Shown here: in pieces, positions 1 to 5,511 of the stretch
Layout of the letters: every line of letters starts with the position of its first letter
Numbering within the stretch: the first letter of the stretch is position 1
From: Elusimicrobia bacterium HGW-Elusimicrobia-2
GTDB lineage: Bacteria; CG03
Reading direction: 5' to 3'
Assembly (NCBI GenBank): GCA_002841685.1
Contig: PHAM01000042.1
Location: forward strand, 1-16,935
Length of the DNA stretch: 16,935 bases
Program-made: the position numbers and the translations under genes
Notes under the pieces: generated by a model
What the model was told of the DNA's origin: nothing
The model's input: the letters and a program-made list of their open reading frames with translations, nothing else
Databases searched by the model: none

Positions 1-133
1 GCATATTTTCAGTCTCTCCCCGACGAGCGCCTGTTTGCGCGACCCCCAAAATCCGCTTATTTTCGCTGTTTTTTTCGCTGTTTTGGCGAACTTGGGTTAC
101 TGAATTATATCATATTTTCCCCGCCGGTGGGGT
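1..133. other. Gene-free left edge, possible mobile-element end
   Basis: No ORF is supported here. The stretch has a near-perfect 14-bp palindrome (CCCCGCCGGTGGGG, about 119-132) beside a segment that reads GAGCCTGTTGCATAAACC on the minus strand. That segment begins where the ATPase gene to its right loses its family sequence. From memory it resembles terminal inverted repeats of some insertion sequences (a core like CTGTTGCA), which would explain the truncation. No transposase is visible, so any element would lie outside the window. A short tandem repeat of TTTTTCGCTG-like units lies at about 60-90. Confidence 0.35.
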
Positions 134-946
134 TTATGCAACAGGCTCATTTACACTTTTAATCTCTGTCGCATTCTTCAATCTGTTGTATGTGGACAAA
201 TTCCCCGTGTTTGTTAAAAGATACCTTGCCAGCTCCTTTACCTGCTTGATATTTCCAACTTTGTATCTTTCAGCTATATCCCTGTCTATTATGTTGTTAA
301 AGTATTCCTGCAGTATTTCTTTCTTCCTGTACTTAAGAAATTCGGGGAACCCTCCCGTTTTGACATATTCATCCAGATATTTTTTTATTACCGCTCTTTT
401 TTCCGTCATGTAAACTGCTCTTTCCCCGTAATCCACTTTTTTAAATCTGAGCATTTCTCTGAAGCTGAACGGGAATATTGAAAACTGGAGGTGACGGCCC
501 GTCAATAGAGTAGCCAGTTCTTTACTCAGCAGTCTTGCGTTTGAACCTGTTATAAAGAACTTGAATCCGTCACCGTACATTCTCCTTACCCATTTTTCCC
601 ATCCGTAAATATTCTGAATCTCATCCAGGAAAAATATTTTCGCCTTTCCAAAAAGCTCTATGCACGCTTCGTAAAGAGAGTTGAAGTCTTTCAGTTCAAA
701 GTCCGCAAGCCGCTCGTCTTCAAAATTAATGTAATAATACCTGACGGAGTAACTGTTCATTATCTGCGACAAAAACACCGATTTGCCGCACCTCCTTATC
801 CCACTTATAACTACCGCATGCTTCAGCCGGGCAAATCCCGAAACCTTCTTAAGTTTTTCTCTTTCCACATAGTTTCCGTTTTGCATATTCCTGATTTTTC
901 GTTTCTGCTCAAGCAGAATTTCTTTTAATAATTCTTTTGATATCAT
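134..946 (-). CDS. AAA_14/DUF4143-family ATPase, C-terminally truncated
   Basis: This is the ATPase half of the AAA_14 plus DUF4143 family, common single-gene P-loop proteins of unknown function that are often exchanged between genomes. Visible motifs are a Walker A loop (GIRRCGKS, residues 49-56), a Walker B strand (IFFLDE, 104-109) and a sensor-1-like stretch (FITGSNA, 131-137). It then has the helical region that normally leads into DUF4143 (YLLTNTGNLSTYNRLKNA). Family members run to about 400-450 residues. This one stops at 270, just after IKSVN, where the family would continue into DUF4143, so the C-terminal domain is lost. The start is well supported: GGGAGG lies 4-5 nt before the ATG. 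The gene is more AT-rich than the operons to its right, which fits transfer. It is probably non-functional, although the ATPase core is intact. Confidence 0.8.
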   Translation of the reverse strand: MISKELLKEILLEQKRKIRNMQNGNYVEREKLKKVSGFARLKHAVVISGIRRCGKSVFLSQIMNSYSVRYYYINFEDERLADFELKDFNSLYEACIELFGKAKIFFLDEIQNIYGWEKWVRRMYGDGFKFFITGSNARLLSKELATLLTGRHLQFSIFPFSFREMLRFKKVDYGERAVYMTEKRAVIKKYLDEYVKTGGFPEFLKYRKKEILQEYFNNIIDRDIAERYKVGNIKQVKELARYLLTNTGNLSTYNRLKNATEIKSVNEPVA

Positions 947-1046: not shown

Positions 1047-1889
1047 CTATTTTATTACTTTGATCGCCGCCCAAACGAAGGGCGATAAACCATCCGCTAT
1101 CGCCTGCTTTTGAGCTTGCTGGAGCGCCCTCTCCGAGGACAAACCCCTGCTGAAACTTTCATAGAATAATTTTGTCATTATCGGTGAATGGCTGTCACTC
1201 ACTTCCCAGAGGTTCACGATCACCTCATCAGCCCCCGCGAAATGAAACGCGCGGGAAAATGAATTCATCTCGTCGCCGGGAAGCACTTTTCCTCTCGCTG
1301 TCTGGCAGCCGTTCAGGAACACGAAACGGCTCTTTATCTTACGTCCAAAAAGTCCGCTCACCCTTAATGCTCCGTCGCTGAGAAGCAGCCGCGACATATC
1401 CTGCTGACTCTCTTCTATGACGGCGTGACCGGCAAAATGGAACATTGAATATTTCTCAAGAGCGCTGAGCACACTTTTCCTCCTGCAGGCGCTTCCTTTC
1501 AAATCACGCGTTCCTAATGCTTTGTCTGAAATAACGAAGACTAATCGCTTTACTTGTTCGGTTACTTGTTCGGTCTCGCTGTCAGTCACTTGTAAAAACT
1601 TAGGCTGAATAGGAAGTTCCACCACAAAATAACTGCGGTCGTCGTCCGTATGAAAAACCGGCTTAGGCGACTCGTTCTTTTTAAGCGCCCGCAAAATCTT
1701 CGGGAATCCTGCCCCTTTCCCTTCTGTCATATCAAGTTCTTTTAAGAACTCTCCTATCCTGCGGTTACGGTATCTTCTGGATACCAAACTATATTTTTTA
1801 ATATCTTTATCCAAAATGGATCTGTCCGGCCCGCCATTTATTTTACTTTGAACTCCAATATTCAACGCTCGGCCGATTGGAAATGACAA
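1047..1889 (-). CDS. Chimeric ORF: AlbA_2-type protein tail fused to partial CHAT protease domain
   Basis: The 280-codon ORF joins parts of two unrelated families. Residues ~20-130 match the C-terminal part of AlbA_2/HATPase_c_4 ATP-binding proteins (RecG-like annotation): SRRYRNRRIGEFLKEL, then FPKILRALKKN, DDDRSYFVVELPI, and the start of the winged helix ending at GTRDL. From ~133 the sequence is the catalytic half of a CHAT caspase-like protease. Its His is in FHFAGHA (H155) and its Cys in FLNGCQTARG (C195), followed by the conserved FHFAGADEVIVNLWEVSD and the C-terminal SPFVWAAIKVI. The N-terminal parts of both families are missing. The only in-frame starts are TTG (1889) or CTG, with no visible Shine-Dalgarno and an in-frame TAA just upstream (1905-1907). 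I infer a deletion-generated remnant. An internal AGGAGG followed by GTG at 1472 could allow a 141-residue CHAT piece to be made. Confidence 0.6.
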   Translation of the reverse strand: MSFPIGRALNIGVQSKINGGPDRSILDKDIKKYSLVSRRYRNRRIGEFLKELDMTEGKGAGFPKILRALKKNESPKPVFHTDDDRSYFVVELPIQPKFLQVTDSETEQVTEQVKRLVFVISDKALGTRDLKGSACRRKSVLSALEKYSMFHFAGHAVIEESQQDMSRLLLSDGALRVSGLFGRKIKSRFVFLNGCQTARGKVLPGDEMNSFSRAFHFAGADEVIVNLWEVSDSHSPIMTKLFYESFSRGLSSERALQQAQKQAIADGLSPFVWAAIKVIK

Positions 1890-1894
1890 ACTGA

Positions 1895-1978
1895 TCAGGC
1901 GCGCTTATCGCCCTTTCTATTTACGGCCTGCTCTTCGCGCTGATACTTGCCGGTATAAAAAAGTTCAGAAAAAAATAG
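1895..1978 (+). pseudogene. Tail fragment of a membrane-protein gene
   Basis: Twenty-seven plus-strand codons between a TGA (1892-1894) and a TAG (1976-1978) encode a single hydrophobic helix followed by a basic tail (SIYGLLFALILAGIKKFRKK). This is the usual look of a C-terminal transmembrane anchor with a cytoplasmic positively charged end. There is no start codon or ribosome-binding site, so it cannot be expressed alone. I read it as the surviving 3' end of a deleted gene. The parent family is not recognisable. Confidence 0.4.
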
Positions 1979-2004
1979 GCGAACTAGTTCCAGCTATTGC
2001 GGCA

Positions 2005-2913
<909 letters not shown>

Positions 2914-3054
2914 ATCAACCTTCCTTTATCACAATCTGATTTCTAACGCGCCAGAGGCCACAAATCTTAGCTCTCAATATGTTAGACGCCTGAAAGCGGC
3001 TGTCTGTTACAATTTTTGAAAAATTAATTGAAAACTTATACGGCGGCTAATGCC
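2914..3054. other. Intergenic spacer upstream of the collagen-like gene
   Basis: This AT-rich 141-bp spacer separates the end of the exonuclease gene from the start of the collagen-like gene on the same strand. It should hold the collagen-gene promoter, but I find no -35/-10 pair with correct spacing, and no clear hairpin-plus-T-run for the upstream operon. Confidence 0.4.
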
Positions 3055-3582
3055 CTATCGTAGTCCGCTCAGCATTTCTTCAAACGCCGGCCTGTCCGTC
3101 TCCATCGTCTTTAACACTATACTGGCGCACGCGTTCGCGTCCGAGAGGGGATCGTGATGCTTGAGTTTGATCCTCAGCTCCCTGCAGACATTGTCCAGTG
3201 TCGCCGGCCTTATATCCAGTATTTTTCTTGACACCTGCACCGTGCATATAAACGGCGCGCGGGGCATTTCCACTCCGGCATTTTCACAGCAGGCCCTCAG
3301 CACAGTCCTGTCAAATCCCTTGTTGTGCGCCGCGAGATAGTGCGCACCGTCGAGCTTCCGCCTAAGTTCCGGCCAGAGCTGGGCGAATGTGGGCGCGTCC
3401 TTCACATCATCCCAGGTGAGGCCGTGCACATAGGTGAACATGAAATCCCGCCGCGGGGGGCGGATAAGATAATGAGTCCTGTCGGTTATCATGTTGCCCT
3501 CTATCCTCACAATACCGATGGCGCAGGCGCTGTCGTGGCCGTGGTCCGCCGTCTCAAAATCAATCGCGACAAAACTTTTCAT
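3055..3582 (-). CDS. DnaQ-like DEDDh 3'-5' exonuclease
   Basis: This compact exonuclease of the DNA polymerase III epsilon (DnaQ) superfamily has 175 residues. All three motifs are visible: ExoI AIDFET (D8, E10), ExoII AAHNKGFD (D91) and ExoIII HDPLSD (H143, D148, the DEDDh signature). It should remove 3' nucleotides from DNA or RNA. Stand-alone members of this size are common and their cellular substrates are usually unknown. I start it at the ATG at 3582, 26 nt after the lolD stop. A longer frame runs back to 3798, but its extra 72 residues are arginine-rich and overlap lolD, so they are an artefact. It is the last gene of the lysS-lolE-lolD operon, and its weak leader lies inside an inverted repeat. 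Confidence 0.88.
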   Translation of the reverse strand: MKSFVAIDFETADHGHDSACAIGIVRIEGNMITDRTHYLIRPPRRDFMFTYVHGLTWDDVKDAPTFAQLWPELRRKLDGAHYLAAHNKGFDRTVLRACCENAGVEMPRAPFICTVQVSRKILDIRPATLDNVCRELRIKLKHHDPLSDANACASIVLKTMETDRPAFEEMLSGLR

Positions 3583-3587
3583 AAATC

Positions 3588-3623
3588 GGGGACGCCCGCC
3601 TGCCGGAGTCAGCCCCTGTCCCC
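3588..3623. repeat. GGGGAC/GTCCCC inverted repeat across the lolD-exonuclease junction
   Basis: The arms GGGGAC (3588-3593) and GTCCCC (3618-3623) flank a GC-rich core. The element encodes the last LolD residues and stop codon, and ends just before the exonuclease ATG. On the minus strand it opens with ATGGGGACAGG, close to ATGGGGACGG at 8494 upstream of nfeD. Together these suggest a dispersed REP/MITE-like element in this genome. Confidence 0.45.
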
Positions 3624-4301
3624 ATCCTGGAGGACGCCGTTGCGAAGATGCAGCACGCGTCGGCCCGAGGCCGCGGCGAGGTCGCGGTTGTGGGTGACGA
3701 AGAGCACGGCGGCGGAACTCATTTCCAAGAATAGCGTCATCGCCTTCATAACGAGAGCGGCGTTGCCGTCGTCGAGCTGACCCGTGGGCTCGTCGCACAG
3801 GAGGAGCGAGGGATCGTTCATCAGCGCCCTGAGGATGGCGAATCTCTGGAGCTCGCCGCCGGAGAGTTGAGAGGGATAATGCTGGGCGCGCTCTCCCACG
3901 CCCATCGTATCAAAAAAGTTTTTCGCTTTTTCGTAAACTGTTTTTTTGTCTGCCCCGGCGATCAGCGACGGCATCATCACATTTTCCGAGGCCGTGAATT
4001 CCGGAAGGAAAGTCGGCTGCTGGAAGACAAAGCCCACCGATGTGTTTCGGAGCTTCGCCTTTTCTTTTTCCGTCATAAGAGAAGTGTCTTTGCCGGAGAT
4101 TATCACCTTCCCCGATGTTGAAGAATCCAGCAGACCCGCGAGATTTAAAAGAGTTGTCTTACCGGAGCCGCTCGGTCCCAGAAGATATGTGAAAGACGAT
4201 TCCGCGAGCGAGAAAGAAACATCCGACAGGGCCTTCACCTCAAGAGGCGTGAGGGCGGAATATATTTTCTCCGCTTTTTCAAGAATGAGAATATCACTCA
4301 T
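3609..4301 (-). CDS. lolD: Lipoprotein-releasing ABC transporter ATPase (LolD type)
   Basis: This is the cytoplasmic ATPase that would power release of lipoproteins from the inner membrane with the permease encoded just upstream. Its 230 residues are the standard length. Motifs are Walker A GPSGSGKTT (42-50), Q-loop FVFQQ (~91-95), signature LSGGE (~145), Walker B LLLCDEPTG and H-loop VTHN. They fit the LolD/MacB/FtsE group. The ATG overlaps the lolE stop by 8 nt (ATGAGTGA), so translation is coupled. Assignment to Lol rather than another MacB-type system rests on pairing with a LolC/E-like permease. The last few residues are encoded by an inverted-repeat element. Confidence 0.88.
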   Translation of the reverse strand: MSDILILEKAEKIYSALTPLEVKALSDVSFSLAESSFTYLLGPSGSGKTTLLNLAGLLDSSTSGKVIISGKDTSLMTEKEKAKLRNTSVGFVFQQPTFLPEFTASENVMMPSLIAGADKKTVYEKAKNFFDTMGVGERAQHYPSQLSGGELQRFAILRALMNDPSLLLCDEPTGQLDDGNAALVMKAMTLFLEMSSAAVLFVTHNRDLAAASGRRVLHLRNGVLQDGDRG

Positions 4302-5511
4302 AGCGCAAAATCACCGCCGGAGAGAGCTTGCCCGCCTGCCTGGCGGGTATATATGACGCCAGCAGAATAAAAAACATGCTCGCGGCGTTCACCACGGCAA
4401 AATCGGAAACGCTCATTATCACGGGGAGCTTGTTCATATAATAAACGGCCGCGGGGATATCTATAAACTCATATCTTCTCAGAAGAAGGCAGGCCGCAAC
4501 GGCGATGATATTGCCAAGTATCAAACCCGCCGCGCCGCTCATTATCCCCTGATAAACGAAGATCTTCTCTATGAAGCTCCTGTCGGCGCCAAGGGCTTTG
4601 AGGACTCCTATGTCACGCACCTTCTCTATCGTCTGGAGGAGCAGGCTGGAGATTATGTTGAAGACCGCCACCATGACGATGAGGCTCATTATTATGAACA
4701 TCGTTTTTTTCTCGAGCTCCAGCGCCGCGAAAAGAGTGCGGTTTATTTCCCTCCATGTCCGCACCCACAGCCTCACATCCAGAGCCTTGCGAATCGAGGA
4801 GGCGACTTCATCGGCCCTGCCGGAATCGGCAACGGCTATCTCAAGACCCGTCGCTATATCGCCGGTGCCGTAGAGGTCCTTCATCTCCTCTATGTTTATG
4901 TAAACGAGGTTCATATCGTATTCCCACATTCCCGAGGTGAAGATGCCCGAAATCTTAAACTCCCTCACCCGCCCGCCGGAAAACGGCGACATCTCTGATG
5001 TGTCCGACGGGGGAACTGTGAGAAAAACGCTGTCTCCGACGGAGAGGCCGTAACTTGAAGCGAGCTCCGCGCCTACGAAGATATCGTCTTTGATCAGCGA
5101 ATATTTGCCTTTCATCACCTGTTTCTCAAGCGTTGAGACTTTGTTCTGGAGCGCCGGGTCAACGCCCTTGACCATCACGCCCTGCGAGCGCCCTCTCTTT
5201 GTGAAAACGGCCTGATTCATCAGATACGGGGCGAAGGCTGTCACCCCCTTAACCTCGGTTATTTTGTCTGATACGGCCTTCCTTGCCGCCGCGTCGAAGT
5301 GCTGGGGGAAAAGGATGTTCACGGCGCTGGATGTGGATAAAAATTTGTTTTTGAGATCCGTGTGAAAACCGTTCATGACCGAAAGCGTTATCAAAAGAGC
5401 CGCCGAGCCTATGGCTATTCCCGCGACGGAGATTATGGAAGAAAGGAGAAGAAAAACCTCTTTACGCCTTGAAAAAAGGTAACGGAGCGCTATTTCAAGC
5501 TGAAGCGTCAC
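4294..5511 (-). CDS. lolE: Lipoprotein-releasing ABC permease (LolC/LolE family)
   Basis: This 405-residue inner-membrane permease has the LolC/E topology. It has one N-terminal membrane helix (~20-45), a large periplasmic domain (~46-265), and three C-terminal helices (~270-292, 318-340, 370-392). It ends with the family signature IPARQAGKLSPAVILRYE, and the coupling-loop region EKVRDIGVLKALGA is also typical. With the LolD-type ATPase it would extract lipoproteins from the inner membrane for the outer membrane. A single permease gene suggests a homodimeric LolF-like arrangement, or a second subunit elsewhere. The start is GTG at 5511, overlapping the lysS TGA by 4 nt (GTGA), which supports it. 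The N-terminal LEIALRYLFSRRKE matches the usual family start. Confidence 0.88.
   Translation of the reverse strand: MTLQLEIALRYLFSRRKEVFLLLSSIISVAGIAIGSAALLITLSVMNGFHTDLKNKFLSTSSAVNILFPQHFDAAARKAVSDKITEVKGVTAFAPYLMNQAVFTKRGRSQGVMVKGVDPALQNKVSTLEKQVMKGKYSLIKDDIFVGAELASSYGLSVGDSVFLTVPPSDTSEMSPFSGGRVREFKISGIFTSGMWEYDMNLVYINIEEMKDLYGTGDIATGLEIAVADSGRADEVASSIRKALDVRLWVRTWREINRTLFAALELEKKTMFIIMSLIVMVAVFNIISSLLLQTIEKVRDIGVLKALGADRSFIEKIFVYQGIMSGAAGLILGNIIAVAACLLLRRYEFIDIPAAVYYMNKLPVIMSVSDFAVVNAASMFFILLASYIPARQAGKLSPAVILRYE

Follow-up and report, generated by a model that had tools for sequence, protein, structure and literature searches.

Within the window, the 16,935-nt stretch of Elusimicrobia bacterium HGW-Elusimicrobia-2 DNA analysed here, a frame of 280 codons beginning with TTG runs uninterrupted on the minus strand from 1889 to 1047. 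The plus strand of the same interval contains many stops. The frame had been reported in the first-pass annotation, which left its strand unstated and described a two-part protein, the tail of an AlbA_2 protein joined to a CHAT protease core. Both of these parts are present. A third donor precedes them: residues 1-19 belong to neither family and come from sequence upstream of a DUF4349 gene, read antisense. The chimera is therefore built of three donor pieces, with the boundary between the AlbA_2 and CHAT parts at about residue 131 (Table 1).

Table 1. Coordinates of the chimeric frame, its pieces and the neighbouring features in the window.
Feature	Position	Strand	Basis or remark
Chimeric open frame	1047..1889	-	280 codons; TTG first codon without a Shine-Dalgarno-like sequence
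Residues 1-19, antisense of the DUF4349 gene upstream region	1833..1889	-	Match to G003:C39
Residues 20-131, AlbA_2/HATPase_c_4 C-terminal part as far as the early winged helix	1497..1832	-	G001 identity; Pfam HATPase_c_4
CHAT domain C-terminal half (residues 132-280) with stop codon; His155 and Cys195 retained	1047..1496	-	Pfam CHAT; G007:C179 identity
Last 13 codons and stop of the CHAT gene, a remnant also in G001	1047..1088	-	40/42 bases identical to G001:C198 4779-4820; same frame, same stop
AGGAGG, 6 nt, then GTG (residue 140; GTG at 1472)	1470..1484	-	Best start-like site inside the frame
tRNA-Asp 3'-end-like sequence with conserved flank CGCCATnnnnnTTACTTTGAACT; possible old attachment site	1827..1854	+	23-nt pattern
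Last about 26 codons of the deleted DUF4349 gene	1892..1978	+	98% identical to G003:C39 3675-3760
Truncated gene for an AAA_14/DUF4143-type ATPase, about 266 of 432 codons kept	134..946	-	Pfam AAA_14 8.1e-36; intact 432-aa relative G006:C59 4605-5903
Collagen-like protein gene between the exonuclease gene and the scar, outside the chimera	2005..2913	-	Pfam Collagen 9.1e-16; PHROG tail-fibre collagen-like matches

In Pfam searches of the whole ORF, residues 36-90 matched positions 35-87 of the 89-position HATPase_c_4 profile (E 1.1e-8) and residues 96-277 matched CHAT (E 1.7e-31). The first-pass annotation had made its fusion reading depend on each half finding its own family. Scanned apart, the halves still match HATPase_c_4 (2.7e-9) and CHAT (3.2e-31 over profile positions 129-285 of 289, a range that comes from the scan of the CHAT half alone), so neither match arose by chance.

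The AlbA_2 piece has a close intact relative in the same genus. Residues 20-98 are 91% identical to the product of a 516-aa gene at G001:C198 1953-3503, and the DNA of the piece is 86% identical to that gene. The G001 protein carries SLFN_AlbA_2 (residues 17-145), HATPase_c_4 and a Fic-like C-terminal domain. The closest relatives of this part, whatever their phylum, start matching at residue 20 (GPDRSI). The match reaches about GTRDL, where the CHAT part starts (KGSACRRKSV versus SGKNARKEKI in G007), and the alignment thus places the break at or adjoining GTRDL in the winged helix, as had been proposed. Residues 20-131 are a close relative of the C-terminal part of SLFN_AlbA_2 plus HATPase_c_4 proteins (PF04326, PF13749), but the chimera lacks their AlbA_2 domain, their middle and most of the winged helix. 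Pfam finds no N-terminal AlbA_2 domain (PF04326) in the frame, and HATPase_c_4 itself is incomplete, with profile positions 1-34, the first third of the domain, missing. The same genome has six other HATPase_c_4 matches over the cut-off in long open frames.

Comparison of the AlbA_2 piece with G001 gave 7 nonsynonymous and 23 synonymous codon changes (dN about 0.056, dS about 0.75). The low dN relative to dS indicates that the piece was strongly constrained through most of the period after the two species diverged. These values fit either a recent truncation or continued constraint, and a recent cut is the simplest reading; it would account for the frame being still open. For the CHAT half, the corresponding comparison with G007 is saturated and yields no usable dN/dS.

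The CHAT part is 50% identical to a CHAT ORF in G007:C179. Aligned with it, the catalytic residues His155 (in HFAGH) and Cys195 (in FLNGC) are intact, as the first-pass annotation stated. The chimera does not contain the whole domain (PF12770, about 289 positions), of which it has only 129-285, whereas intact relatives in G007 and G011 cover profile positions 4-287 and 5-289. No CHAT domain over the search threshold was found in any other genome of the same genus, the viral contigs scanned with the CHAT half held no relative, and a PDB sequence search with an intact CHAT relative gave no match. For the chimera, PADLOC returned no more than a weak BovA match (E 0.0014). The chimera has the His, the Cys and the C-terminal domain half in common with CHAT proteases such as Csx29 of Cas7-11 systems. 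Unlike them, it is missing the domain's first half and a TPR or other sensor part, and no partner genes were seen.

The region around the frame is decayed as well. Residues 1-20 are 95% identical to the antisense of G003:C39 2706-2765, which lies upstream of the DUF4349 start at 2834; this contig of the same-genus genome G003 holds an intact DUF4349 gene. Compared with it, about 906 bp are missing from the window between copies of AGGC. CGGG is common to the AlbA_2 gene and the DUF4349 upstream region where they meet at 1830. Base-level comparison covers two joins, this one (CGGG) and the one at AGGC, each sharing about 4 bp, because at the third, between AlbA_2 and CHAT, the G001 AlbA_2 tail differs in sequence and an intact CHAT gene is kept by none of the close relatives. 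Every gene to the left of 1978 is cut (DUF4349, AlbA_2, CHAT and AAA_14), giving four truncated genes within 2 kb.

The AAA_14 truncation lies close to a repeat of about 99 bp at the start of the window (1-99), which recurs at three other contig ends in this genome (C5, C39 and C49; 95-100% identity). The repeat is probably one end of an element, mobile or repeated, that disrupts the assembly. The PADLOC matches of the truncated ATPase gene are to the phage-defence candidate PDC-S01 (E 2.7e-72). On the other side of the scar, the collagen-like protein has a signal-like N-terminus and GxKGDKG repeats and is similar to phage tail-fibre collagen-like families. Its gene was not seen at the equivalent place in the sister genomes read.

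Gene order in a sister species provided insights into how the pieces came together. On one strand, G001:C198 carries an exonuclease gene (276-800), a YgjP-like gene (831-1322), a macro-domain gene (1319-1846), the AlbA_2 gene (1953-3503) and a TIM-barrel gene (3547-4773). The 42 bases after the TIM-barrel gene (4779-4820) preserve nothing of the same CHAT gene beyond its final 14 codons, counting the stop. In G001, then, an intact AlbA_2 gene precedes this CHAT remnant on one strand. The window has the same exonuclease gene followed by the AlbA_2 piece and the CHAT piece, in the order and orientation of G001. This agreement indicates that the AlbA_2 and CHAT genes were near neighbours in an ancestor, the CHAT gene having eroded separately and differently in the two lineages. 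The macro-domain, AlbA_2 and AP_endonuc_2-like TIM-barrel genes stand in a row at this site in G001 (1319-4773).

The fusion itself was found nowhere else. The 60 relatives searched contain no AlbA_2-CHAT fusion, a set that takes in all 15 other genomes for the phylum, and none of 16 loci from a species-genome collection has both halves in one frame. No plasmid record covers 80% of the chimera query, and the literature search turned up no relevant case of CHAT fused to AlbA. The same architecture in other genomes, expected of a stable two-domain fusion family, was not found. The flanks of the 16 AlbA_2 loci contain no CHAT relative, giving no sign of a standing partnership between the two genes. 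The first-pass annotation had suggested comparing related genomes for the same fusion or for separate parents, with many full-length homologues of the same architecture speaking against a remnant; the comparison yielded none of these, and G001 retains AlbA_2 and the CHAT tail.

Taken together, the frame is very probably a relic, a pseudogene left behind by a series of illegitimate deletions in a variable region of accessory genes next to a lysS / ABC transporter / exonuclease block. The AlbA_2/HATPase_c_4 gene and the CHAT protease gene formerly lay close together on one strand. One deletion would have removed the first half of the CHAT domain together with the AlbA_2 end and anything between them. 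The remainders would have joined in frame, for which the chance is one in three. Another deletion would have truncated AlbA_2 in its 5' part, leaving it fused to the sequence upstream of the DUF4349 gene, and a third would have taken nearly all of the DUF4349 gene. What the sequences show directly is the three donor pieces, the gene order of the sister species, the truncated neighbours and the microhomology of about 4 bp at two joins. A deletion fusing neighbouring accessory genes, with a remnant as the preferred reading, had been proposed at the outset. The genes kept by G001 beside the same exonuclease bear this out, as does the weak TTG start, cited then as favouring a remnant. The locus is more decayed than was described, with a third donor piece at the 5' end and two further truncated genes adjoining. 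The deletions were presumably recent. We infer that no functional protein is made from the frame, because the whole frame has no credible start and both folds lack their first halves. Against a remnant stand the lack of a stop in 280 codons, the strong past constraint on the AlbA_2 piece and the two intact catalytic residues.

The way in which the block arrived is a separate matter, on which one proposal is compatible with a deletion remnant. Within 1827-1854, CGCCAT is followed by five bases and then TTACTTTGAACT. This 23-nt pattern has five exact copies, with no mismatch, in eight genomes. Two directly follow tRNA-Asp in sister genomes (G003:C100 306-328 and G001:C94 113-135), and three are free copies at variable sites: the one in the window, G003:C39 2703-2730, which has an excisionase-like HTH gene nearby, and G000:C34 489-511. 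The 1830 join may accordingly be an attachment site, with the AlbA_2/CHAT/AAA_14 block as one degraded end of an integrative element that had inserted at the 3' end of tRNA-Asp. This is possible, although the odds are somewhat against it. No integrase was found in the contigs read and the tRNA-Asp of G000 has a different flank, so the attachment site is put forward tentatively; in addition, only 7-10 nt of tRNA sequence are in common.

A working small protein is improbable. Either the fused frame or a 141-aa CHAT core starting from the GTG at residue 140 would be expressed as a caspase-like peptidase. The open frame and the intact His155 and Cys195 would fit such a protein, and the GTG follows one of only two AGGAGG-6-GTG sites in the window (both strands). 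This AGGAGG is simply two Arg codons, and the site is for that reason probably a chance occurrence. The CHAT part also lacks about the first 128 profile positions, nearly all of which intact relatives retain, and the restriction of the fusion to one genome argues against a function. In the characterised TPR-CHAT protein Csx29, a pseudo-caspase domain (CHAT1) precedes the active domain and activation needs partners (PMC10028731). Structure prediction of the chimera alone from its single sequence was uninformative (mean pLDDT 38). Functional chimeric proteins made by deletion are known in bacteria (PMC7671302). There, as in the deletion remnant proposed here, a deletion with both ends inside genes joins two frames; some of those fusions are expressed and have spread in lineages, whereas the present chimera occurs in one genome only, in a decaying region. 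That the deletion gave birth to a new gene, an expressed miniature CHAT peptidase (from GTG 1472 or as the whole fusion) kept by selection, is more improbable still.

Assemblers need overlaps far above 4 bp. It is just as improbable that a short-read assembler joined unrelated fragments into a chimera absent from the cell: the genome is a draft of 94 contigs and the window starts in a repeat found at three other contig ends, but no more than about 4 bp is shared at the joins, G001 and G003 show the same genus-specific surroundings for the entire locus, and contamination of the genome is estimated at 0.42%.

The chimera is an ordinary feature. To annotate it as a novel DNA-binding/caspase fusion would in all likelihood be a mistake. 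A frame in a draft genome with two convincing Pfam matches can be a deletion scar, and comparison within the genus settles the question. The locus itself marks a variable accessory-gene site with a possible link to tRNA-Asp.
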